NCBI GenBank assembly: GCA_002686955.1
Contig: NYZA01000249.1
Coordinates: 1-44,159 of the forward strand
Direction of reading: 5' to 3'
Length of the DNA stretch: 44,159 nucleotides
Source: Gemmatimonadota bacterium
GTDB taxonomy: Bacteria; GCA-2686955
Under the pieces are notes generated by a model. The model had not been told where the DNA came from, ran no database searches, and saw only the letters and a list, made by a program, of their open reading frames with translations. Shown here piece by piece: positions 8,263-36,076 of this stretch; the stretch's first letter is position 1, and each line of letters opens with the position of its first letter. The position numbers and the translations under genes are program-made.

Positions 8263-9639
8263 ATGCCGACGACTCGCTACAAGCTCTCCAAGTACAACTG
8301 GAGCTTCGACTCCGATGATGGGGAGGGTAGCTACGTTTTCAATGGCCTGAGCCGGGCGTTGGTCGCGCTGAGCTCGGGCGAGACGGCGCAACTGCGAGCG
8401 GTCAAGGATCGATCCGCTGTGGCGAGAATCGACCCGGAGCTGCGACGCCAGTTAGTGCGCGGTGGCTTCATGATTCCAGAGGACGAGGACGAGCAGGCAC
8501 GATTGAAACTCCGATATGAGACGGCCCGCTTCCGGGCGGAAGCTCTGAGCCTGACCGTCGCGCCGACCCTCGACTGTAATATGCGTTGTTTCTACTGTTT
8601 CGAAGGGGAGAAGGGCCGGCAATCGATGTCGATCGAGACGGCGGACAAGCTCTTGGCCTTCGTCGACCGTTACCTTCGCGCACACGCCCTTCGAAAAGTG
8701 TCGCTGTGTTGGTTCGGAGGAGAGCCTTTGTTGGCTTTGCCGGTGATCGAGCGCGTCAACGATGGGATCCTGGGCATCTGCGATCGGGAAGGGTTCGAGT
8801 TCGAGAGCCGTGCGATCACGAACGGCGCGTTGCTCGATCCCGCGGCCGCGCGCGTTCTTCTTCGTGGCAACTTGAGCAGCTTGCAGATCACTTTCGATGG
8901 ACCACGTTCCGCACACGACCGAACGCGCGCTCTCGAAGGGGGCGTGGGCTCGTTCGATCTGATTCTCGAAAGGCTCGCGGAGCTCCACAAGGCGGGTCTG
9001 CTGAAGAATGTCGGAATCGCTTTTCGCGTTAATGTGTGGCGAGAGACGGCCGATCCAGTGGAGCTCGATCTATTGCGGCGCGAGCTCATCGGCTTGCCCT
9101 GGTTCGATAGATCGAGGATGAACATCTACCTGGGGCATCTCAAAGCTTACGAAGAGAGGGCGGACGATTCGCGGTACTTGAGCCCGGCGGAGTATGTGCG
9201 TCTCTGTCAGTCATTCGCCGCGTCCGAGGGCGAGGAGCCGAAAGCGCGAAACCCTTACCCGAGGGGCGCATCGCTCTGCACCGCCGTGCGAGCCCACTCC
9301 TTCTCCATAGGCCCTCTCGGTGAGATCACGAAATGCTGGGTTTCCTTCGGCGAAGAGGAGGAAGTCGTCGGCAGCATCGACGATCTGCTGGATACAGAGG
9401 AGAGCATCCCGCTGTTACCGGAGTGGATTCGGTGGCTGACCTTCAATCCGGCGGACGACCCGCACTGTCGTGGCTGCAAGAAGCTCCCGCTCTGCATGGG
9501 AGGCTGCCCCTTCTTCGCGCGGGGATCGAGAGACACGCGACACATATGTCACGAGGGCGGTGTTGTAGCGCAACTCAAACGTTTCCTGCGATCTCGCGAT
9601 GGCGTCGAAGCGATCGGCGCCGTTGAAGGAGTCGTCTAA
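8263..9639 (+). CDS. Radical SAM/SPASM peptide maturase
   Basis: A 458-aa radical SAM enzyme likely to modify the cysteine-containing peptide encoded just downstream. The N-terminal ~95 residues resemble a peptide-recognition segment ('SYVFNGLSRALVAL'). The 4Fe-4S motif is C105-x3-C109-x2-C112 ('CNMRCFYC'), followed by 'CWFGGEPLL' and 'ITNGALLD'. A SPASM domain follows with Cys in 'LCTAV', 'ITKCW', 'CRGCKKLPLCMGGCPFF' and 'HICHEGG', enough for two auxiliary clusters. This is the layout of thioether-forming (sacti-/ranthipeptide) enzymes, though other chemistries use the same fold. Two ATGs lie at 8260 and 8263; the second is better spaced from the GGGAG site. Confidence 0.88.
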   Translation: MPTTRYKLSKYNWSFDSDDGEGSYVFNGLSRALVALSSGETAQLRAVKDRSAVARIDPELRRQLVRGGFMIPEDEDEQARLKLRYETARFRAEALSLTVAPTLDCNMRCFYCFEGEKGRQSMSIETADKLLAFVDRYLRAHALRKVSLCWFGGEPLLALPVIERVNDGILGICDREGFEFESRAITNGALLDPAAARVLLRGNLSSLQITFDGPRSAHDRTRALEGGVGSFDLILERLAELHKAGLLKNVGIAFRVNVWRETADPVELDLLRRELIGLPWFDRSRMNIYLGHLKAYEERADDSRYLSPAEYVRLCQSFAASEGEEPKARNPYPRGASLCTAVRAHSFSIGPLGEITKCWVSFGEEEEVVGSIDDLLDTEESIPLLPEWIRWLTFNPADDPHCRGCKKLPLCMGGCPFFARGSRDTRHICHEGGVVAQLKRFLRSRDGVEAIGAVEGVV

Positions 9640-9743
9640 TGGAGTTCTCCGGGAGGCAAATTCGGGGACCTCCGCCGCTTCCGGCGATCGAATCGACCCC
9701 TCTCTCCGTCAGAATCATCACTCGAAACTCAAGGAACACCGAA

Positions 9744-9902
9744 ATGAAATGGATCGTCACACCAAGCTCGACTCTTCCGGATGACACCTGCATCAACCAG
9801 GACTGCGCTCCGCAGGAGTGCGACTGCTTCGTGAAACTCCCCGACCCGGATGAGAAGGCCGATGGGGGCGGCTTGACCGTTACCTTCCAGGCGAAGAAGT
9901 AG
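9744..9902 (+). CDS. Putative cysteine-containing RiPP precursor peptide
   Basis: A 52-aa peptide starting 'MKWIVTPSSTLPDD', with Cys16, Cys21, Cys26 and Cys28 (C-x4-C-x4-C-x-C) in the middle and an acidic/Gly tail ending in two lysines. An AAGGA ribosome-binding site lies 8 nt before the ATG. It is placed directly after the maturase and before two hairpins and an exporter, the standard position for a precursor. No Gly-Gly cleavage site is seen and the exporter has no peptidase domain, so any leader removal must be by another protease. An in-frame ATG at 9639, overlapping the maturase stop, would add 35 residues; I think it less likely. No known precursor family is recognised. Confidence 0.65.
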   Translation: MKWIVTPSSTLPDDTCINQDCAPQECDCFVKLPDPDEKADGGGLTVTFQAKK

Positions 9903-9909
9903 GAGCGTG

Positions 9910-9931
9910 TTGCGCATGGTCTGATGCGCAA
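9910..9931 (+). terminator. Hairpin immediately after the precursor gene (attenuator-like)
   Basis: TTGCGCAT and ATGCGCAA form a perfect 8-bp stem with a 6-nt loop, starting 8 nt after the precursor stop codon. Only a weak pyrimidine stretch follows, so full termination is unlikely. Partial termination or 3'-end protection would give more precursor than exporter mRNA. Confidence 0.5.
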
Positions 9932-9940
9932 TAGGTCCCT

Positions 9941-9991
9941 TGCCGGAACCGGTCGAGGGCTTCGTGATTCGGCCGGCGGCCGGTTCCGGCA
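9941..9991 (+). repeat. Second hairpin between precursor and outer-membrane gene
   Basis: Twelve-base arms at 9941-9952 and 9980-9991 are exact reverse complements, enclosing a 27-nt GC-rich loop. Together with the hairpin at 9910-9931 it fills the 153-nt gap and probably isolates the precursor message from the downstream genes. No T-run follows it. Confidence 0.5.
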
Positions 9992-10055
9992 TCCTTCATG
10001 GCGCGCCGCGCCGATTGCGGAGTCGACTCCGTATCAAGAGCATTGGAGGCAGATT

Positions 10056-12224
10056 GTGTCCAGAGCACCCATCTTCGCCGCGTTCTTTTCGATCGTGTTG
10101 ATCGCTCTCGTCTTGGTGACTGGAGCGAGCGGGGAAGAAAGCACCGGCGAGATTCCGGTCGTGAGGTTCAGCAAGGTCGACACCCCTCCGGTCATCGATG
10201 GTCGAGTGGATGATCGATGCTGGGGCTCGCTGCCGACCTACGGGTCGTTCACCGCCGCTTCCCCGCATCCCGGAACTCCCTCGTGCATGAGCACCAATGT
10301 GAGCGTGTGCTATGACGATTCGCTCATCTATGTCGGCTTCCGCTGCGCCGATCCGAATCCGGACGAGATCATCGTCCGCTCCGGAAATCGCGATGCGAGG
10401 CTGCAAGGCGATGCGGTCTTCGTCATCCTCGACACTTTCGACGACAACAGAACGGGATATCTATTCCAAGCGAATGCGGCCGGTGCCCAGACCGACGTTC
10501 ATATCGAAGACGATGGCCGAGTGCGTGATGATACCTGGGATGCCACTTGGCGCTCCGGTGCTTGGATCGCTCCGGATGGCTGGGAAGCGGAATTCGCGAT
10601 CCCGATTCGGGAGATGCGCTTCCCCCGGGGAGAGGTGATGACTTGGGGGATCAACTTCGGCCGCATCATCGCCCGCGAGCCGGAATACTCGTACCTGGCG
10701 CCGCTGGCGATCGATGACCAATGGCTGAAGATCTCTCGCTGCGCGAGGGGAATCGGCCTCGAGGGCGACTTCAGTCCCGCCAAAGGCCAGGTTGTTCCGA
10801 CCTTCGCCGCACGGCTTCGCACCGATCACGGAGGGAGCGAGTTCGAGGGGCACACCACAACCGGGCTCAACGCGAAGATCAATCTCTCATCGAACTTCGC
10901 CGTAGATGTCACGACCAATCCGGACTTCGGCGAGATCAGCGCGGATCCGAACGTGGTCAGTCTCTCGCGCTACGAGATCCGCTACGCGGAACGTCGCCCC
11001 TTCTTCGTGGAAAGGAACGACGCATTCGCCACGCCGCTGGAGCTCTTCTACTCGAGGCGAGTCGGGCGGGCACTTGGCGACGGCACTGCGGTGCCGATCG
11101 ACGCGGGGGCGAGGCTAACGGGCAAGCAGGGCGGCGTGACCGTGGCGGCCCTGGGTGTTCGCACCGGCGCGGCCTCATACCTCGACGCCGGGGGCTTCGA
11201 TGCCGAAGAAGCCAGCGCGCTACACGGCGTCTTCAGAGCTTCTTACGAACGTGAGAATGAGCAGAAATGGGGTGTGCTCGCCACGTCGCGGAGAGAAGCC
11301 GGGGAAACACAATCGGTCGCCGGTCTCGATGGATCCGCCTCTCTGCCGTGGGGGTGGGAGGCGTTGGGGCAAACGGCGGTCAGCTTGTCGAGCGCGGCGA
11401 ACGACCACGGAAACGGCGCGTTCAAGGGCAAGCTCTGGAGATACCGAGATTCCTACAATATTTCTTTTCGATACCGAGAGATCGGCCGCGGCTTCGATGC
11501 GAACGACCTCGGCTACGTGCCGTGGATAGGGCAGAAGAGGATCAAGGGTTACGCCGGTCTCACACCACGTCCGGATCGTTGGGGCGTACGTCGCGTCGCG
11601 ATCGGAAGCTCGTTGTCGGCGTATCGGGTCGTCGGGGACCGGCAGTGGTCGCGCACAATCGCGCCTTCCGTATCGGTGTCGCTCGATGGTGGACACGGGT
11701 TCTTCATCGGTGGCGACCGCTTCTCCGAGTACTACGACGGACAGTCGTGGGAAGGAGGCAGCTGGAGCACGGGAGGCTACACAAATGGAAATCTGCCCTT
11801 CTGGATCTCCTCGACGATCGGCGGTGGCGACCTCCTCGACTACAGTCGAGTGGAGCTTGCGGACCACCTCTGGGGCTTCGTGGCAATGGGGTGGAAGATC
11901 GGTGAGACCGCGTCCTACTCCGCGAGCGCCTACCGGCTGTGGACGGAGTTCGCCGACGCATCCAGCGACTACGAGGTCTCTACGTTCATGAATCAATTCT
12001 CCTACTTCTTCACGAACGACCTGTACTTCCATTGCTTCCTGCAGGGGATCGATTACTCCCTCTGGGACGGTCCATGGGAGGATCGAGTCGATTTCGATCT
12101 GAATGCACTCGCCTCCGTGCGCGAAGGCGGCTTGACCCTCTACGTCGGGTGGAATATCTCGGGCAGTTGGAACTACAACGAGAAGGCGCGAGTGGTAAAA
12201 GTGTCTTATCTGAGTCGATTCTAG
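10056..12224 (+). CDS. CBM9/DUF5916-type outer-membrane beta-barrel protein
   Basis: A 722-aa exported protein. The GTG at 10056 has a GGAGG site 6 nt upstream and yields a clear signal peptide ('AAFFSIVLIALVLVTGASGE'). Next comes a CBM9-like sandwich (about residues 35-220: 'PPVIDGRVDDRCWGS', 'LIYVGFRCADP', 'GWEAEFAIPIREMRFP', 'WGINFGRI'). A 'TTNPDFGEISADPNVVSLSRYEIRY' stretch (two parts), 'ERRPFFVERND' and alternating-residue barrel strands run to a final aromatic ('SYLSRF'). I recall this arrangement from DUF5916 proteins, usually stand-alone. Here it lies between precursor and exporter, 5 nt before the exporter start. It may therefore be an outer-membrane conduit or receptor for the peptide, which is inference. 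Confidence 0.82.
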   Translation: MSRAPIFAAFFSIVLIALVLVTGASGEESTGEIPVVRFSKVDTPPVIDGRVDDRCWGSLPTYGSFTAASPHPGTPSCMSTNVSVCYDDSLIYVGFRCADPNPDEIIVRSGNRDARLQGDAVFVILDTFDDNRTGYLFQANAAGAQTDVHIEDDGRVRDDTWDATWRSGAWIAPDGWEAEFAIPIREMRFPRGEVMTWGINFGRIIAREPEYSYLAPLAIDDQWLKISRCARGIGLEGDFSPAKGQVVPTFAARLRTDHGGSEFEGHTTTGLNAKINLSSNFAVDVTTNPDFGEISADPNVVSLSRYEIRYAERRPFFVERNDAFATPLELFYSRRVGRALGDGTAVPIDAGARLTGKQGGVTVAALGVRTGAASYLDAGGFDAEEASALHGVFRASYERENEQKWGVLATSRREAGETQSVAGLDGSASLPWGWEALGQTAVSLSSAANDHGNGAFKGKLWRYRDSYNISFRYREIGRGFDANDLGYVPWIGQKRIKGYAGLTPRPDRWGVRRVAIGSSLSAYRVVGDRQWSRTIAPSVSVSLDGGHGFFIGGDRFSEYYDGQSWEGGSWSTGGYTNGNLPFWISSTIGGGDLLDYSRVELADHLWGFVAMGWKIGETASYSASAYRLWTEFADASSDYEVSTFMNQFSYFFTNDLYFHCFLQGIDYSLWDGPWEDRVDFDLNALASVREGGLTLYVGWNISGSWNYNEKARVVKVSYLSRF

Positions 12225-12229
12225 AGCGC

Positions 12230-14005
12230 ATGGCTTTCATCGGATTGCGGCGTCGCGTCTCGGTCTCGGTGGAGACGCGGACGGGCTTTCGCCTCCTTCT
12301 CGACCATACGCGCGGTCATCGGAGACTCGCGCTCGGTGGTGGCTCACTGCTCGGTCTGTCGACCCTGCTCAAATTGCCGCTGCCCCTTGTGACCAGGTAC
12401 GTGATCGACGACCTGCTCCTGGGCGGTCCGGACGGCGCGGGCGGATTTGATTCTGCGGTCGCGTTCCTGATTGCTGCGCTCGTGATCCAGGTGGCGATCG
12501 TGCTCGCTCAGGACTGGGTTTTCGCCGTCTTCGTCGAGCGTGTGGTCCGCGAGATACAGGTGGAGCTCTACGCACACGTGAGCCGTGCCGGCTCCGCGGA
12601 GCTGAGCTCGAAGCCCTCCGGCTACCTGCAGGCGAGAATCGTCTCGGACTGCGAGCGCCTCAGAGGCGTGATGGCGACGAACATTTTTCGCGCTCTGCGC
12701 GACCTGCTCACGCTGATCGTCGGCGTCAGCATGCTCTTCTACCTCTCCCCCACCTTGGCCACGATCTCCCTGGCTCTGGTCCTCCCCTATGGCGTCACGC
12801 AGTACGCGTTCGGACAGCAAGCGAGAACACGATCCGCGCGGGCGCAGGAGGAGAGTGCGCTATTCCGTGGCGTGCTTCAGGAGATGCTCGGAGCCGCCAA
12901 GGGGATCAAGATCCACATGCTGCATAGTTTCGCGCTCAAACGCGTCTCCGATGGCGCCGAGGCCGCTAAAGAAGCGAATCTCGATTGGGCTAGAGTGTCG
13001 CTGCTCGCATCCGCCGCAACCGGATTGATCATGGGAGCCGCGCCGCTCCTTGTGTTGTGGATCGCTGGAAGGGAGATCATCGCGGGGCGTATGACCATCG
13101 GCACTTGGCTCGCGTTCAACACCTTTCTGGCTTACGCCTTCGGTCCCGTGGGCTCCTTGCTGAACATGAACATCGTTGCGCAAAGCTCCATGGCGGCGCT
13201 CCATCGAATCGTGGCTTTGATTCGCATTCCCGGCGAAGGCGATCGCTTCGGCCGGCACCCCGCCGCCATCGGCAACGTGCCTGAAGTGCGTTTGCGAAAT
13301 GTGTCGTTTGCGCACGAAGACGGGAAGCTCGCTTTGCAAGGGATTGACATCACAATTCGGCCCGGCGAGACGATCGCCATCGTGGGCCCATCCGGATGCG
13401 GCAAGTCGACCTTGGCGGATCTCTTGTTGGGATTGCATGTGCCTACGAGCGGTACGATCGAGCTCGATGGCGTGCCGATGACCGATCTTCCGCTCGACGA
13501 GATCCGCGCCCGCATCGGCCTGATCCTTCAGGCCTCTTTGGTATTCTCGGGCAGCATCGCCGAGAATGTGGTGGCGGGCACGATTGAGCAGGGTGGGAAG
13601 GACCCGGACGGCGCCCTACGAATGACCGGTGCCGACGCGATCGGGGAGGATCTGGCGCGCCGCGACGGAGGCGAAATCTCTGAGGGCGGGGCGAACCTCT
13701 CGGGTGGCGAACGCCAGAGGATCGCCCTCGCCCGGGCGTGCCATCGCGACAGGGGGGTTCTGATCCTGGACGAGGCGACTTCTCAGCTCGATTCGGTGTC
13801 GGAAGAGGCGATCAGGAATGAGCTCATCTCTAGGCGCCGCGGCTCCACGACCATCGTCATCGCGCATCGGCTATCGAACGTCGCGGGCTTGGATCGGATC
13901 GTTTTGATGCAGAATGGGCAAGTGAGGGCTACTGGAACGCACGCGGAACTCCGGGACTCGAACGCTCTCTACACCGAGCTCATGCGTGCCTACGCGGCCG
14001 CGTAG
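12230..14005 (+). CDS. ABC exporter, fused transmembrane and ATPase domains
   Basis: A 591-aa half-transporter of the MsbA/lipid-peptide exporter type. Residues 1-330 carry about six membrane helices. The NBD has Walker A 'GPSGCGKST' near 385, 'LSGGERQR' near 490, Walker B 'VLILDEATSQLD' and the H-loop 'IVIAHRLS'. All catalytic residues are present, so a homodimer would be active. There is no N-terminal C39 peptidase domain. The start ATG lies 5 nt after the stop of the barrel protein, which argues for a common transcript. The likely cargo is the modified peptide; lipids or drugs remain possible. Confidence 0.88.
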   Translation: MAFIGLRRRVSVSVETRTGFRLLLDHTRGHRRLALGGGSLLGLSTLLKLPLPLVTRYVIDDLLLGGPDGAGGFDSAVAFLIAALVIQVAIVLAQDWVFAVFVERVVREIQVELYAHVSRAGSAELSSKPSGYLQARIVSDCERLRGVMATNIFRALRDLLTLIVGVSMLFYLSPTLATISLALVLPYGVTQYAFGQQARTRSARAQEESALFRGVLQEMLGAAKGIKIHMLHSFALKRVSDGAEAAKEANLDWARVSLLASAATGLIMGAAPLLVLWIAGREIIAGRMTIGTWLAFNTFLAYAFGPVGSLLNMNIVAQSSMAALHRIVALIRIPGEGDRFGRHPAAIGNVPEVRLRNVSFAHEDGKLALQGIDITIRPGETIAIVGPSGCGKSTLADLLLGLHVPTSGTIELDGVPMTDLPLDEIRARIGLILQASLVFSGSIAENVVAGTIEQGGKDPDGALRMTGADAIGEDLARRDGGEISEGGANLSGGERQRIALARACHRDRGVLILDEATSQLDSVSEEAIRNELISRRRGSTTIVIAHRLSNVAGLDRIVLMQNGQVRATGTHAELRDSNALYTELMRAYAAA

Positions 14006-29872: not shown

Positions 29873-30334
29873 ATGGCCGGTATCCACCGCATTCTCGTGC
29901 CGATCGACTTCTCGCCCTGCTCCAAGAGCGCCGCCGAGTACGCGCTCTTCCTCGCGGAAAAGACCGGAGCTACCATCGACCTCGTCTATGTCTGGGAGCC
30001 GCCGGTCTTCCTGGGACCGGAGTTCTTCGAGGGCGTTCACAAAGAGCGGAATCTCTCACTCTCCGAGGTCGCACACGGAAACGCCTTGCAGACACTGAAC
30101 GAGTTCGCCCAGGAGATTCCGATCCCCGATGACGCGAAAGTGCGGCCGAAGGTCGTGAGCGGGAGGGTCCACGAAGAGATCCTCGCGCTCGCCGCGTCGG
30201 AAGGCTACGACCTCGTCGTAATGGGGACGCACGGAAGGAAAGGGCTTGCGCATCTTCTGCTCGGAAGCGAGACCGAGAAGGTCATCAGAGAGGCCTCCTG
30301 CCCCGTGGTCGTCGTGCACGAAGGCGTGAATTAG
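29873..30334 (+). CDS. Universal stress protein UspA family
   Basis: A 153-aa cytoplasmic protein, 'HRILVPIDFSPCSKSAAEYAL' at the start (in parts) and the ATP-binding signature 'GTHGRKGLAHLLLGS.TEKV' near the end, of the G-x2-G-x9-G-S/T type. It is 16 nt ahead of the kinase gene, so it probably belongs to the same operon and may be part of its stress output. The ATG has an AGGAG site. Confidence 0.92.
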   Translation: MAGIHRILVPIDFSPCSKSAAEYALFLAEKTGATIDLVYVWEPPVFLGPEFFEGVHKERNLSLSEVAHGNALQTLNEFAQEIPIPDDAKVRPKVVSGRVHEEILALAASEGYDLVVMGTHGRKGLAHLLLGSETEKVIREASCPVVVVHEGVN

Positions 30335-30350: not shown

Positions 30351-31943
30351 GTGCGCCCCTCGATGGGCGCCAGGACAAACGAGATGTTCTCCGCCGATTT
30401 CGCCGCTCCGATCGGAGCGCTGCGCCGGGCCCTCGTCGAAGGGGGTGGAAAAGGGGTGAGTCTGCTCGATCCCCTGGGGTGCATTCTCCGGGCTGGCCCC
30501 GGACTGGCCGAGACCCTGGGGACGACGGACGTGCAAGTTGTCGGCGCGCCCCTGACCCGCTTTCTGCCTGGCTTGACCGGCCGACTTCCGGCCCTGCTGG
30601 AGGAATCTCGCCGATCGGGCTGGGCCGCCAGTTGGGGAGAGATCTCTGCGGCCGGCAAGCGACTGGCCGTCTCGATCGCGCCGGTGGCGAGCTCGTCCAC
30701 GGAGCAGCTCTCTCCGCCAGTAGGAGAACAAGACTCCGAGAGCCTCTGGGTGCACACCTGCGGACGCAGCGAAACCGATGGACGCCGGACCTGTGGGCCG
30801 TGCAGCTTCGCCCTTTTCGTCCGTGACGAATCGACGGTGACCGAGCCGCTCGACCAAGTTGTTCACCAGTTCGAGCTCTTGCGCTCTTTCCTCTCCGGTT
30901 CCGGCGACGCCGTGATTCTGCTCGATCCGGACCTACGTGTTTTTGGCTGGAATCGAGCCGCCCAACACGTCTACGGCTACACCGAAGAGGAGGTGCAAGG
31001 AATGTCGCTGGAGGAGCTGCTTCCCGAGCGGCTCAGGAAGGCCGGTGAGCTCGACGTTCTGCAACGGCAGCTCATGCGCCTCGGAACGGTGCAAAGCTAC
31101 GAGACCACCCGAGTCACGAAGCAAGGCGAGGAACGCGAAATCGAGCTCACGCTCTCCTGCCTGAAAAACGCGGAAGGTGAGTGTGTCGGCTTCTCCGCGA
31201 TCCACCGAGATGTCACGGTGCGCGCGCAACTTCAGGAGCGGGTCGTGCGCGATGGCCAGCTCGCCGCTATCGGGCGGATGGCTACGCAGGTTGCGCACGA
31301 ACTGCGCAATCCGCTCGGCGCCATCCAGCTCAATGTAGAGATGGCCCGTGACGAGTTGATCGATCTGCCCGGTGCGAATGCCCATGAGGCGGGCAAGCTG
31401 CTCGATTCGGTGCTTAGCGAAGTCGATCTTCTCGCTCGGATCGTCAATGAGTATTTGCAATTCAGCCGGATGCCGCCCGCTCATCCTCAGGCGCTGCCCC
31501 TGGCGGAGCTGGCCTCGGAAGCGGCGGATCTTCTGCGCGGTGAATTCTCGAACCTGGGCGTGTCGTTGCGATTGCGCGGACCCGATGCGCAGATCGTCTG
31601 CAGGGGTGACCGCGACCAGCTTTACCGAGTTGTCGTCAATCTGTTGCGCAACGCAATGGAAGCGTCGCCGCGCGGTAGTTTCGTCGACATCGAAGTAGTG
31701 GAAGACGAAGGGGAAGCGGCCCTACGCGTGATCGACGAAGGCTGCGCTTTGACCGCCGATAAGCTCGATTGGATTTTCGAGCCCTTTCATACGACCAAGC
31801 TCAGCGGGACCGGCCTCGGACTCCCCTTGGCACGCAAGATCATCGAAGAACATGGCGGTACTCTCTCAGCTCGACTTCGCAAGGGTCGAGGCATGCAATT
31901 CGAGATCAGGCTGCCGATCCAAGAGGAGGACGAAGCGCGGTGA
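30351..31943 (+). CDS. PAS-containing sensor histidine kinase
   Basis: A 530-aa kinase without obvious membrane helices. An N-terminal PAS-like region (about 30-160) ends in a cysteine trio Cys137-x10-Cys148-x2-Cys151 that could hold a metal or act as a redox switch. A second PAS domain (about 178-290: 'DAVILLDPDLRVFGWNRAAQ', 'YGYTEEEV', 'HRDVTVRAQ') follows. The H-box is 'VAHELRNPLGAIQ' with His316, the N-box 'NLLRNAMEA', and the G boxes 'DEGCAL...' and 'GTGLGLPLARKI'. The first G box is DEGCA instead of D-x-G-x-G. GTG at 30351 follows a G-rich site; ATG at 30363 is an alternative. Its TGA overlaps the regulator's GTG, so the two form a cognate pair. Confidence 0.9.
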   Translation: MRPSMGARTNEMFSADFAAPIGALRRALVEGGGKGVSLLDPLGCILRAGPGLAETLGTTDVQVVGAPLTRFLPGLTGRLPALLEESRRSGWAASWGEISAAGKRLAVSIAPVASSSTEQLSPPVGEQDSESLWVHTCGRSETDGRRTCGPCSFALFVRDESTVTEPLDQVVHQFELLRSFLSGSGDAVILLDPDLRVFGWNRAAQHVYGYTEEEVQGMSLEELLPERLRKAGELDVLQRQLMRLGTVQSYETTRVTKQGEEREIELTLSCLKNAEGECVGFSAIHRDVTVRAQLQERVVRDGQLAAIGRMATQVAHELRNPLGAIQLNVEMARDELIDLPGANAHEAGKLLDSVLSEVDLLARIVNEYLQFSRMPPAHPQALPLAELASEAADLLRGEFSNLGVSLRLRGPDAQIVCRGDRDQLYRVVVNLLRNAMEASPRGSFVDIEVVEDEGEAALRVIDEGCALTADKLDWIFEPFHTTKLSGTGLGLPLARKIIEEHGGTLSARLRKGRGMQFEIRLPIQEEDEAR

Positions 31944-33298
31944 CGACGGAACCAAGAACAGTACTGGTCGTCGAAGATGACGAGGCACATCGTTCGGCGA
32001 TCTGTCGCGTCCTCGAACGAGAAGGCTATGTCGTTCTGCAAGCGGACAGTGGAGATGATGCCCTTGCCGAGATCGGGGAGAAGGTCCCAGGGGTCATCGT
32101 CTCCGATCTGCGCATGCCGGGCATGGACGGGCGCGAGCTTCACAGAAAGGTACAGAGTAGACGCCCAGACGCGGTGTTCGTGATGGTCAGTGGCGAAGGG
32201 ACGGTTGAGGAGGCGGTCGCGAGCCTGAAGGAGGGTGCGTACGATTACCTCACAAAGCCCGCGGGCAAGAACGAGCTGATTCGCGCGGTGAGCCATGCGT
32301 ATGACCGCCACCGATTGCTGAGGGAAAATGTGCTGCTCCGAGAGCGTCTCGAGGAGCACGAAAGGAAGCAACATATCGTCGGCACCAGCCGCCAGATGAG
32401 ATCGGTAATCGAGCTGGTGGAGCAAGTGGCCCCGAGCTCCGCTACGGTCATGGTCAAGGGCGAGAGCGGCACCGGCAAGGAGCTTCTCGCCAATCTGCTC
32501 CACAGCCTTTCGCCCCGCCGCGAGAAACCCTTCGTCAAATTGAATTGTGGAGCGCTGCCCGAGACGCTGCTCGAAGCCGAGCTATTCGGTCATGAGAGGG
32601 GATCGTTCACCGGCGCGGTCGGGGCGCGACGAGGCCGATTCGAAATCGCGGATGGCGGGACTCTACTGCTCGACGAGATCGGTGATATGCCGGCTTCGAT
32701 GCAGATCAAGCTCCTGCGAGTGCTGCAGGAGGGGGAGTTCGAACGGGTTGGAGGAGCCAGAACTCTGCGAACCGATGTGAGAATCGTCGGCGCGACACAC
32801 CGCGATCTGGCTGTCGAGGTAAAGGAGGGCAGGTTCCGGGAAGATCTATACTTCCGGCTCAACGTGATCTCCGTCGTTGTCCCGCCGCTCCGGGAGCGCC
32901 CCGACGATGTTCCCCTCTTCGTGAACCACTTCCTGGCGCTCTACAATCGGAAGAACTCGAAGGCGATCAGAGGGATGACCCGCTCCGCGATGGAGGCGAT
33001 GGTCCGCTACGATTGGCCGGGAAACGTGCGAGAGCTCGAAAACGTCATCGAGCGCGCGGTCGTTCTGTGCAAGGACGAGTTCATCGATTCGTCCCAGCTT
33101 CCGGCTCCCGTAAACGACGCCGACGGATCGGCCGATGTGCTGCATTTTCCCGTCGGGACCGAGCTGGCGGTGGTCGAGCGGGAGATGATCTTGAGGACCT
33201 TGAATCGTAGCGGCGGAGACAAGAGAAAGACCGCCCGGGTTCTCGGCATCGCCCCCCGTACGATCTACCGGCGCCTGGCGGAGTGGGGAATCGGTTGA
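31940..33298 (+). CDS. NtrC-family sigma54-dependent response regulator
   Basis: A 452-aa activator: receiver (1-120) with phospho-acceptor Asp56 ('VSDLRMPGMDG') and 'YLTKPAGK'; AAA+ core with Walker A 'GESGTGKE', the sigma54-contacting loop 'GSFTGA' (a common variant of GAFTGA), 'LLLDEIGDM', 'DLYFRLNV' and 'YDWPGNVRELENVIERAVV'; and a Fis-type HTH ('GDKRKTARVLGIAPRTIYRRL') at the end. All parts needed for phosphorylation-dependent activation are present. A GTG start overlaps the kinase stop. A near-perfect sigma54 promoter lies 0.8 kb downstream, before the small RNA. Confidence 0.95.
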   Translation: MTTEPRTVLVVEDDEAHRSAICRVLEREGYVVLQADSGDDALAEIGEKVPGVIVSDLRMPGMDGRELHRKVQSRRPDAVFVMVSGEGTVEEAVASLKEGAYDYLTKPAGKNELIRAVSHAYDRHRLLRENVLLRERLEEHERKQHIVGTSRQMRSVIELVEQVAPSSATVMVKGESGTGKELLANLLHSLSPRREKPFVKLNCGALPETLLEAELFGHERGSFTGAVGARRGRFEIADGGTLLLDEIGDMPASMQIKLLRVLQEGEFERVGGARTLRTDVRIVGATHRDLAVEVKEGRFREDLYFRLNVISVVVPPLRERPDDVPLFVNHFLALYNRKNSKAIRGMTRSAMEAMVRYDWPGNVRELENVIERAVVLCKDEFIDSSQLPAPVNDADGSADVLHFPVGTELAVVEREMILRTLNRSGGDKRKTARVLGIAPRTIYRRLAEWGIG

Positions 33299-33299
33299 G

Positions 33300-33725
33300 C
33301 TACTCGCGCGGCGGGGTGCCCACCAGCGCTCTGGCGACTCCGAGCAGCTCGGAGCCCTGAACCGGCTTCGAGAGCACATCGAGAGCGCGATAGCGCCTCG
33401 CCTCCGAGATGATCCACCCGCTCAGATGGCCGGTCACGACCGATGCCGTCACGCTCGGGTATTCGGTGGCGAGCTTGCGAAGAAAGGCAAGGCCGTCGCT
33501 GCCGCGCAAGACCGGATCGAGCAGCACACCGTCGACCTGAGAGCTCTCGAGGATCTCGGTTGCGTGTCGAGTCGTCGTGGCCACCTTGACGATCATCCCA
33601 TCATCCGCGAGCACCCTGCTCGCCGAGCGCAGAAATCCCGGGGAATCGTCGATCAGCAGAAGGACCGGGGGGCGTGCGCTGCCGAAGGGCGATGCGTGGA
33701 TCGAATCCGAGCTCTGCTTCTCCAC
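33300..33725 (-). CDS. Stand-alone receiver-domain response regulator
   Basis: A ~141-aa CheY-like protein with 'VLLLIDDSPGFLRSA', the acceptor Asp in 'VDGVLLDPVLRGSDG', Thr in 'SVVTGHL' and Lys in 'VLSKPVQG'; no output domain. The usual 'D-x-R-M-P' loop is 'DPVLRG', so the active-site surroundings are unusual. The start is uncertain: the frame is open to 34013, but only the part from about the GTG at 33725 looks like a receiver, and that GTG lacks a clear ribosome-binding site. It ends 1 nt from the NtrC-type gene, tail to tail, suggesting it may compete for the kinase phosphate. Confidence 0.78.
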   Translation of the reverse strand: MEKQSSDSIHASPFGSARPPVLLLIDDSPGFLRSASRVLADDGMIVKVATTTRHATEILESSQVDGVLLDPVLRGSDGLAFLRKLATEYPSVTASVVTGHLSGWIISEARRYRALDVLSKPVQGSELLGVARALVGTPPRE

Positions 33726-33844
33726 TGAGGTGCAGCATCCGAAAGGGTGTGATCGATGGGACCACCCGGCCGAGGCCGGTTCTTGAAAGTCTCCATTCCT
33801 CGAATGAGCTCGCAAGTTGTGGGCCGGATCGAAAACGGCTTCCA

Positions 33845-33905
33845 TGCACCCATAAGGGGTTGCACGGCATCGCCGGAAGCCATCGTCCCGGCTGTCACCG
33901 TGACA
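33845..33905. promoter_or_regulatory. Two dyads, candidate activator (enhancer) sites for the sigma54 promoter
   Basis: TGTCAC-C-GTGACA (33893-33905) is an exact 13-bp dyad centred about 170 bp upstream of the -24 box. TGCACCC...GGGTTGCA (33845-33864) is a near-symmetric dyad resembling NtrC-type sites. Both sit at the usual distance for enhancer-binding proteins. The stretch 33726-34068 contains no gene I can support; the plus-strand frame at 33756-34088 lacks any family resemblance. Confidence 0.4.
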
Positions 33906-34068
33906 ACCCTCGTCGGGCATCGGTGCCTCATCTGCGCCAGATCGGCAATCCTCGTCAAAGAAGGGATCGCCGATCGGCCGGACACGATTCCGAGGACGGG
34001 CAGCCAAACCCAACCCGTTGACCGCCTTCTAGCCTCTGGCGACGCCCACCTGCCCGCGGCGATCGAAA

Positions 34069-34085
34069 TGGCACATCGCTTGCGG
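34069..34085 (+). promoter_or_regulatory. Sigma54 (-24/-12) promoter
   Basis: TGGCACATCGCTTGCGG matches TGGCACG-N4-TTGCW at all positions but the G before the spacer and the final W. GG (34070-34071) and GC (34082-34083) are 10 nt apart, as sigma54 requires. The predicted start is at about 34095, at the base of the 11-bp RNA stem. Confidence 0.75.
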
Positions 34086-34094
34086 TAAGGCATG

Positions 34095-34223
34095 AACACA
34101 CCAAGCCCCGCATAGCGTCTCCCCCGACGCGCACCCGGATTGGTTATGCCGACCGCCTCCTTGGGGCTTGGTGCACAATGGGCCGGCGTCCCGCTTTTGG
34201 CGAGGGCGTCGGCCCTTTTTTTT
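34095..34223 (+). ncRNA. Putative sigma54-dependent small RNA with C-rich, anti-SD-like segments
   Basis: From the promoter to the terminator the RNA is ~129 nt. An 11-bp perfect stem (34099-34109 with 34163-34173) is stacked on a 5-bp stem (34110-34114 with 34145-34149), which encloses a 5-bp hairpin (34115-34119/34126-34130) with the loop UCCCCC. A 13-nt bulge (34150-34162) reads CGACCGCCUCCUU and contains CCUCCUU, the complement of a Shine-Dalgarno sequence. A terminator forms the 3' end. Exposed C-rich motifs are how many regulatory RNAs block ribosome-binding sites. There is no downstream plus-strand gene, so it is not a riboswitch leader. No known RNA family (6S, SRP, tmRNA, RNase P) was recognised. 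Confidence 0.7.
34180..34223 (+). terminator. Strong intrinsic terminator of the small RNA
   Basis: A 15-bp GC-rich stem with one bulged A (34203) and a UUUUG loop is followed by eight T residues (34216-34223). It is the clearest intrinsic terminator in the window, and no plus-strand protein gene precedes it. The following 34224-34379 contains nothing I can support. Confidence 0.9.
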
Positions 34224-34379: not shown

Positions 34380-35591
34380 CTAGTGGGGGATCTTCAACTC
34401 GGTGAGATGGATCGCGTTGGAGAAGATCCACGGGTGGAGAGTCCGTTCTCCTGAGTTCTTCTCATCCCGAACCTGCCGCACCTCGACTCGCCAAATACCC
34501 GGATCCGGCTCGAGCACGACGATCCTTGGAGTGGAATCGGGACCCAAGTGCGCGTGCACCTTCCCGTTGTGGATCAAGCTCAAATCGGTCCCCACCCCAC
34601 TCGCGGCGAGCTCGATGCTGAGCTTCGTGACCACATCGGCCGGCAATCGAGCGCCGGCGACCTCGAGCCTGCCTTCGACCGTCTCGGCAACAAAGGCCAG
34701 GGGTGGAACCGCGCCGAACGCGGGAACGACGGCATCGGAACGCCCGGATTCGAGCGATTGGCGCGCCAGATCGATTCTCGCTGAAGCGCTCGATGGCCAG
34801 GGAAGCGGCACATAGACCCGAGTGGACAGGACGCGAAAGAGATCTTGATACCTCGGGAATCGAAGCATCGAGTCGCCGATCAGGTCGAGGCGGGAATGAG
34901 CATCGACCGAAGCGATCAGCGGTGGAGGCGAGTCGAAAGTTGCCAAGAGCTCCAGCTCGTCGACCGGCTCCCGGATGATCGACGCAAACGCGGCGCGGCG
35001 TTCGAAGGGGATCGCCAATACCGCCGCCGCCAGCTCGATCGGGGAGCGAATTCGCCAAGACGAGTTGAAGCTCATCAGCTCCATCCCCCCCCCGGCCGGC
35101 CAAACATCGGCTGCCCAGGGATGGCGCTTGTTGGTCGGGTGCGCGACGAAAGGCACACGCGAAGGCGAAAGAGCATCATAGAAACGCCGTCCGCCGTGCC
35201 CGACCTCTTCATCTCTCAAGCCCGAGGAGCCGAGAAACAGCGCGTGACCATCACTGCCAAGCGAGCACTCGATCCCGGAAAGCACCAGGACCCCCAAGCG
35301 CTCTCCCTCCTCCGCGGCCGTGCGAAGTGTGTTGTGGTCACATAGCACGACAAAATCCAGCTCCGCTGCGGCCGCTTCACGAACCACTTCGTGAACCGTT
35401 CCCCCTCCGTCGGAAGCTAGGGTATGAACGTGTATGGCGCCGGTGAGCGTCTTCCAGCCCCTGGGGGCGGCATCGGGATCGGCCAGTGCTACTTCCAACG
35501 GAGCCCAAGGACGTACCCAAAGCACTGACAACGCTGTCGCGATCGCCCAAAAAACCACCAGCACGGTCAACAACCAGCGTACGGTTCTCAT
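34380..35591 (-). CDS. Membrane-anchored PHP-domain metallohydrolase (CehA/McbA-like)
   Basis: A 403-aa protein: an N-terminal anchor ('WLLTVLVVFWAIATALSVLWV', in parts) then a PHP domain with metal ligands His54 and His56 ('GAIHVHT'), 'LCDHNTL' (Asp85, His86), 'SGIECS', 'DGHALFLG', 'FVAHPTNKRH' and 'SVDAHSR'. A C-terminal beta-rich region is of unknown role. PHP domains hydrolyse phosphoesters, but the substrate is unknown. The ATG at 35591 overlaps the rfaE2 stop as ATGA, making this the last gene of the envelope operon. Confidence 0.83.
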   Translation of the reverse strand: MRTVRWLLTVLVVFWAIATALSVLWVRPWAPLEVALADPDAAPRGWKTLTGAIHVHTLASDGGGTVHEVVREAAAAELDFVVLCDHNTLRTAAEEGERLGVLVLSGIECSLGSDGHALFLGSSGLRDEEVGHGGRRFYDALSPSRVPFVAHPTNKRHPWAADVWPAGGGMELMSFNSSWRIRSPIELAAAVLAIPFERRAAFASIIREPVDELELLATFDSPPPLIASVDAHSRLDLIGDSMLRFPRYQDLFRVLSTRVYVPLPWPSSASARIDLARQSLESGRSDAVVPAFGAVPPLAFVAETVEGRLEVAGARLPADVVTKLSIELAASGVGTDLSLIHNGKVHAHLGPDSTPRIVVLEPDPGIWRVEVRQVRDEKNSGERTLHPWIFSNAIHLTELKIPH

Positions 35592-36076
35592 GCTTCCCCT
35601 TTCTCCGCGGAGAGTCGAATTCGACGTACCAATTCGCTGGTCGACACTCCCTCGATCATCGGTACCAGCTTCACGACTCCGCCCCACGACCGCACTTCGT
35701 CGGCGCCGACGACCTCTCGATTCAAATAGTCGTGGCCTTTGACCAATACGTCGGGCCGTAACGCCAGTACGGTATCGAGCGGGGTGTCTTCGGAGAATGG
35801 AACAACCAGATCGACCGATTCGAAAGCGGCCAGGATCCGTGTCCGCCCCTCGAGCGGAAGCAGCGGCCGGGTTGCTCCCTTGATTCGCCTGACCGATTCA
35901 TCGTCATTGACCGCCACTACGAGGAGATCGCCAAACGATGCCGCTGTTTCGAGTACGGCCACGTGACCGTGGTGAAGCAGATCGAAACAACCGTTGGTGA
36001 AGACGATCCGCTTGCCCGACTGTCGCGCGACCTCGCATACACGGCACCCCTCGGCCCGCTCTACTACACGCCCCAT
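35588..36076 (-). CDS. rfaE2: Heptose 1-phosphate adenylyltransferase (RfaE2, HldE C-terminal type)
   Basis: A 162-aa nucleotidyltransferase with 'FTNGCFDLLHHGH' (residues 26-38), 'NDDESVRRIKG', 'RTRILAAFESVDLVVPF' and 'KGHDYLNREVVGADEVRSWGG' (in parts), typical of RfaE2. It makes ADP-heptose precursors for LPS. A stand-alone start exists at 36076, overlapping rfaE1 by 13 nt; the longer frame is the rfaE1 shadow. The split into two genes contrasts with the fused HldE of enterics. Confidence 0.93.
   Translation of the reverse strand: MGRVVERAEGCRVCEVARQSGKRIVFTNGCFDLLHHGHVAVLETAASFGDLLVVAVNDDESVRRIKGATRPLLPLEGRTRILAAFESVDLVVPFSEDTPLDTVLALRPDVLVKGHDYLNREVVGADEVRSWGGVVKLVPMIEGVSTSELVRRIRLSAEKGEA

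Follow-up and report, generated by a model that had tools for sequence, protein, structure and literature searches.

In the Gemmatimonadota DNA analysed here (44,159 nt; referred to as the window), positions 34069 to 34223 hold a promoter-like motif, an inverted repeat and a terminator close to a two-component system. Is this a small RNA gene, which regulator would switch it on, and how would its product act? A sigma54-driven small RNA gene is the best reading of the segment and a highly probable one; it is well supported because of the anatomy of the locus and the rarity statistics given below. The full explanation, in which a stand-alone sigma54 sRNA gene is served by the neighbouring regulator and its RNA acts in trans via C-rich segments, is considered likely. 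The promoter core, fold, terminator and lack of coding signal are read directly from the DNA, as are the presence of RpoN and the type of regulator; we infer that the unit is transcribed. The features are collected in Table 1.

Table 1. Features of the putative small RNA locus and its neighbours, in positions of the window
Feature	Position	Strand	Remarks
Universal stress protein	29873-30334	+	upstream of the kinase gene
PAS histidine kinase	30351-31943	+	likely partner of the NtrC-type regulator; PF00989, PF00512, PF02518
NtrC-type response regulator (REC, sigma54 AAA+, Fis HTH)	31940-33298	+	proposed activator; PF00072, PF00158, PF25601, PF02954
Stand-alone receiver-domain protein	33300-33725	-	divergent from the RNA; PF00072 5e-17; coding score 0.167
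Palindrome TGTCACCGTGACA	33893-33905	.	weak candidate activator site, ~165 nt upstream of the promoter
sigma54 (-24/-12) promoter core TGGCACATCGCTTGC	34069-34083	+	exact TGGCAC-N5-TTGC
Predicted ~129-nt small RNA	34095-34223	+	fold z -5.6; promoter 12 nt upstream, terminator at end, no coding signal
Closing stem, 5' arm CACCAAGCCCC	34099-34109	+	exact 11 bp
UCCCCC hairpin loop	34120-34125	+	unpaired p>=0.98 (fold prediction)
CCUCCUU single strand at three-way junction	34156-34162	+	unpaired p 0.67-0.99 (fold prediction)
Closing stem, 3' arm GGGGCUUGGUG	34163-34173	+	exact 11 bp
Intrinsic terminator	34180-34223	+	16-bp hairpin with one bulge (34180-34215) and T8 (34216-34223)
Gene with weak PHP-domain match	34380-35687	-	next downstream, convergent with the RNA

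The promoter core is the sole exact match to its pattern found by a scan of the 44-kb window. Its GG (34070-71) and GC (34082-83) are 10 nt apart, it agrees with 10 of the 13 positions of the extended consensus YTGGCACGN4TTGCW, and the predicted start at 34095 lies 12 nt past the GC; the spacing and the predicted start given by an earlier, sequence-only reading both agree with this. A genome search finds an RpoN gene in both genomes of the phylum. Across the source genome, with both strands counted (2 x 4.28 Mb), there are 20 exact cores. About half of these may be chance matches, because the reversed pattern used as a control gave 10 matches against the 20. Judging by its positions, the consensus appears to be in use in the source organism, since other exact cores stand before dnaK, a flgB-like gene and a second flagellar gene of the hook/rod type. 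Exact cores are found upstream of dnaK in both phylum genomes (L084, G000:C257:20715; L035, G001:C81:13479); sigma54 control of dnaK would, if so, be unusual.

The unit that follows the promoter is predicted to fold into the 11-bp closing stem, which encloses two hairpins, and a terminator hairpin set apart from these, with a minimum free energy of -69.6 kcal/mol and a z-score of -5.6; none of 200 shuffles equalled it. An RNA of ~129 nt with an exact 11-bp closing stem had been described from the sequence, and the description holds. The pairing probabilities agree with the further claim that the UCCCCC loop and CCUCCUU are unpaired. The eight Ts of the terminator are also as described, while its hairpin, given before as 15 bp, has 16 pairs and one bulge.

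No protein product is evident for this unit. In a codon model that gives real genes leave-one-out scores of 0.10 to 0.23, the ORFs overlapping the RNA score as non-coding, and they have no Pfam match; two short overlapping + strand frames run through the terminator. A coding reading of these ORFs was rejected on the scores and on the course of the + strand frames. The RNA is followed by no + strand gene, the next one (34380-35687) being on the opposite strand; the locus does indeed, as first suggested, serve no ORF. Elsewhere in the window (8263-14005), a radical SAM/SPASM peptide maturase-like gene (8263-9639) lies near an ABC exporter-like gene (12230-14005); this is a possible modified-peptide cluster.

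How rare is such an arrangement? The statistics on terminators and targets come from a 444-kb sample of the source genome (L107-L126 and the window), which is about 10% of the genome and whose contigs were partly picked for containing earlier hits. The terminator at 34180-34223 has the only T8 run in this sample. With a strong terminator defined as a hairpin of -15 kcal/mol or lower followed by 8 nt with at least 7 T, the sample contains two, that of the RNA at -30.9 and the other at -18.7 kcal/mol. From the 20 cores, the probability that an exact sigma54 core falls on the strand of a given terminator and 100-200 nt ahead of it is calculated as ~2.6e-4; the features were picked after being seen, and this figure is a guide and not a formal test. 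As a separate observation, long-T intrinsic terminators are almost absent from the source genome (two in the 444-kb sample), which suggests that termination in this organism is mostly factor-dependent.

These statistics bear on a different reading, in which a longer rightward transcript has the structure as its 3' end or terminator, such as one read through from the NtrC-type gene or one from an unrecognised + strand ORF (33756-34088), and in which the sigma54 match is an accident. In favour of this, the ORF stops just short of the RNA and would be served by the terminator, and chance also produces exact sigma54 cores. Against it, the ORF scores -0.056 where real genes reach 0.10 to 0.23, Pfam gives no match for it, the opposing gene 33300-33725 intervenes, and a core and a terminator at such a spacing would be met by chance at about 3e-4. 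A longer transcript is improbable. It is very improbable that the 11-bp inverted repeat has its function at the DNA level, either as a protein-binding site or as the ends of a small mobile element; the repeat is perfect, but it is present as a single copy in the genome besides short terminator-like matches, is bounded by promoter and terminator, and belongs to a unit whose fold has a z-score of -5.6.

The putative small RNA gene has no detectable relatives in the material searched, in which the phylum is barely sampled, with two genomes in the collection. The Rfam and covariance searches suggested by the sequence-only reading returned no convincing homologue from Rfam or from up to 386 genomes. 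Rfam gave nothing above threshold at the gathering score and E<=10. A DNA search of 41 genomes gave only short, terminator-like matches elsewhere; the apparent matches to a covariance model of the whole unit in 192 genomes were terminator hairpins or weak, and the model without the terminator gave only chance-level matches in 386 genomes. Plasmids and phages held no meaningful match to the RNA, and 16 stretches with the stem pattern in viral contigs are taken as chance. The sister genome has no match to the RNA and no clear kinase orthologue; among named genomes, the kinase has only distant relatives, all of them Phycisphaerales kinases.

A different element, unlike the RNA, is conserved between the two phylum genomes. 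It consists of a sigma54 promoter and a ~150-nt leader with an SD-containing hairpin before a lipoprotein-like gene (L083:623-790, G000:C236:10422; L059:15-180, G001:C765:15). When the two genomes are compared, eight pairs of this leader have changes at both positions (RNAalifold); the leader has no Rfam match.

Which regulator would act on the promoter? The NtrC-type gene overlaps the kinase gene by 4 bases, and the top-scoring models for its product are AtoC, NtrC and ZraR, all below curated cut-offs. It ends 771 nt upstream of the promoter, with the opposing receiver gene (33300-33725) in between; the sequence-only reading had omitted this minus-strand gene between the regulator gene and the RNA. 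A palindrome search found no significant activator site upstream of the promoter at 34069. The best palindrome in the window is TGTCACCGTGACA, and palindromes of that size are expected there by chance. The interpretation given in the sequence-only reading is supported in part. The protein encoded at 31940 is truly a sigma54 activator of the NtrC type, and a PAS kinase gene lies upstream; that it switches the RNA on is a proposal, in which the regulator gene is near but an opposing gene intervenes.

The two closest NtrC relatives are encoded in the source genome (G000:C162, 46% identical) and in the sister genome (G001:C588, 43%). Both are followed by a sigma54 promoter 90-130 nt past the stop (~125 nt behind the regulator gene in G000:C162, ~90 nt in G001:C588), which leads into a predicted exported protein. 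From its proximity, and because of these promoters behind two related NtrC genes, we infer that the regulator at 31940 controls the RNA; this is plausible, with a chance slightly better than even. Between the G000:C162 gene and its downstream sigma54 promoter there is a perfect 16-bp palindrome, CACCTCATATGAGGTG (L064:2902-2917), which may be the site bound by that activator.

The mode of action was approached by target prediction with length-limited duplexes and accessibility, for the starts of 357 genes in the genome sample; an unrestricted run, which gave implausibly long duplexes, was replaced by this one. Predicted pairing with these starts is mainly through the UCCCCC loop and the junction segment. 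The predicted binding of the real RNA to 80 sampled leaders was equalled or exceeded by 3 of 27 RNAs shuffled with their structure preserved. Such shuffles have an unpaired CCUCC in 6% of cases and some anti-SD-like 5-mer in 21%. Two-component genes are three of the five strongest predicted targets in the 357-gene sample, in which no target class is clearly enriched (two-component rank test, p=0.23), and no single target stood out. Because predicted pairing is barely above matched controls and there is no standout target, repression by SD pairing is put forward as a hypothesis from modelling, with somewhat less than an even chance. The exposed C-rich segments on which that claim was built do exist; their predicted binding is not significantly better than that of shuffles, and no target class is clearly enriched.

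No match to Hfq is found in either phylum genome, both of which are only ~84% complete. By analogy, the RNA, if real, probably works without Hfq. NfeR1 (PMC10746234) is an Hfq-independent anti-SD-type RNA acting on ntrBC, and LhrC (PMC4132741), also Hfq-independent, is cited with NfeR1 for anti-SD or UCCC motifs. A wider proposal is speculative and improbable. It takes the sRNA to be lineage-specific, in a phylum where Hfq is not detected, and to carry the strongest of the very few intrinsic terminators of its genome; a sigma54 two-component system would make it, and through anti-SD loops it would feed back on the mRNAs of signalling genes.

Two alternatives accept the small RNA and differ on its control or its action. 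A sigma54 sRNA may be made but activated by some other NtrC-type regulator, the neighbouring system being unrelated or controlling the opposing receiver gene. The source genome has many NtrC-family matches (dozens of NtrC-family or receiver genes), and the intervening receiver gene and the lack of a significant activator site are in keeping with this. However, two related NtrC genes adjoin sigma54 promoters, and the published cases of the same layout, CrcZ (PMC8871633) and NrsZ (PMC9308961), are regulated by the neighbouring regulator; another activator is somewhat unlikely. The RNA may also act by binding a protein, in the way of CrcZ or the Rsm type, and not by pairing with ribosome-binding sites. 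Pairing no better than matched controls would fit this, as would a stable structured RNA with two exposed C-rich segments. Against protein binding, which is unlikely, stand the failure to find Hfq and the absence from the sequence of an AAnAAnAA repeat or a loop-exposed GGA, as in the CrcZ and Rsm types.

If the neighbouring regulator is the activator of a stand-alone sRNA gene, the following course of events can be proposed. The phosphorylated NtrC-type regulator (31940), with its PAS kinase (30351), would most likely bind upstream and open the promoter, and the RNA would appear only under the kinase's signal. Sigma54 RNA polymerase would transcribe a non-coding RNA of ~129 nt rightward from ~34095 and stop at the intrinsic terminator. 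The stable, Y-shaped product would act in trans; its exposed C-rich loop and junction would probably touch G-rich ribosome-binding sites without Hfq.

The locus is a credible orphan sRNA gene in a known layout. If transcribed, it would represent an sRNA family without Rfam counterpart, in a phylum with two genomes in the collection. The layout of kinase, NtrC-type regulator and sigma54 sRNA would then extend beyond Pseudomonas and myxobacteria, and there would be a candidate trans-acting RNA in bacteria in which no Hfq was found.

Compared with known systems, the locus has two marks of a sigma54 sRNA beside an NtrC-type regulator: a promoter before a non-coding unit and an activator gene nearby (31940-33298, PF00158). 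By the tests available, the RNA falls outside the Qrr, CrcZ, NrsZ and CCUCCUCCC families. It shares with Qrr and LuxO of Vibrio the pairing of a sigma54 activator with an sRNA; there is no Qrr match in Rfam, the regulator scores 364.8 bits against a LuxO cut-off of 800, and no Hfq is found. NfeR1/alpha-r14 is similar in that NfeR1 is ~123 nt long and Hfq-independent, has an unpaired CCUCCU-type motif and silences ntrBC (PMC10746234). Unlike the RNA described here, NfeR1 has three identical CCUCCUCCC motifs in hairpins, with LsrB as its activator and NtrC as its repressor. The RNA has only one CCUCCUU, and among the alpha-proteobacterial CCUCCUCCC anti-SD sRNAs (CcsR1, alpha-r14) the CcsR1 model gives 13.9 bits against a gathering score of 65.3.

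CrcZ of Pseudomonas is a sigma54 sRNA downstream of cbrAB (PMC8871633), and thus also lies behind a kinase-regulator pair. CrcZ antagonises Crc/Hfq, whereas here there are no CA motifs, no match to Hfq and no Rfam match to CrcZ. NrsZ of Pseudomonas aeruginosa is an RpoN/NtrC-dependent sRNA in the ntrC-PA5126 spacer (PMC9308961) and is likewise encoded next to an ntrC-type gene; it differs in being 226 nt long and processed and in acting on rhlA via the motif ACAGGCAG, which is absent from 34095-34223. Pxr of Myxococcus is encoded downstream of the NtrC-type gene nla19 (PMC5568312). Compared through the Rfam search only, it shows no detected relation to the RNA; Pxr is 108 nt long, forms three stem loops and has a role in development that is known, and the opposing receiver gene is found only here. 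Like Pxr, the RNA is small and multi-stemmed, has a sigma54 promoter and lies behind a gene for a sigma54-dependent response regulator (PMC5568312). The layout of kinase, NtrC-type regulator and sigma54 sRNA is thus already known from CrcZ, NrsZ and Pxr, and the RNA itself is new.
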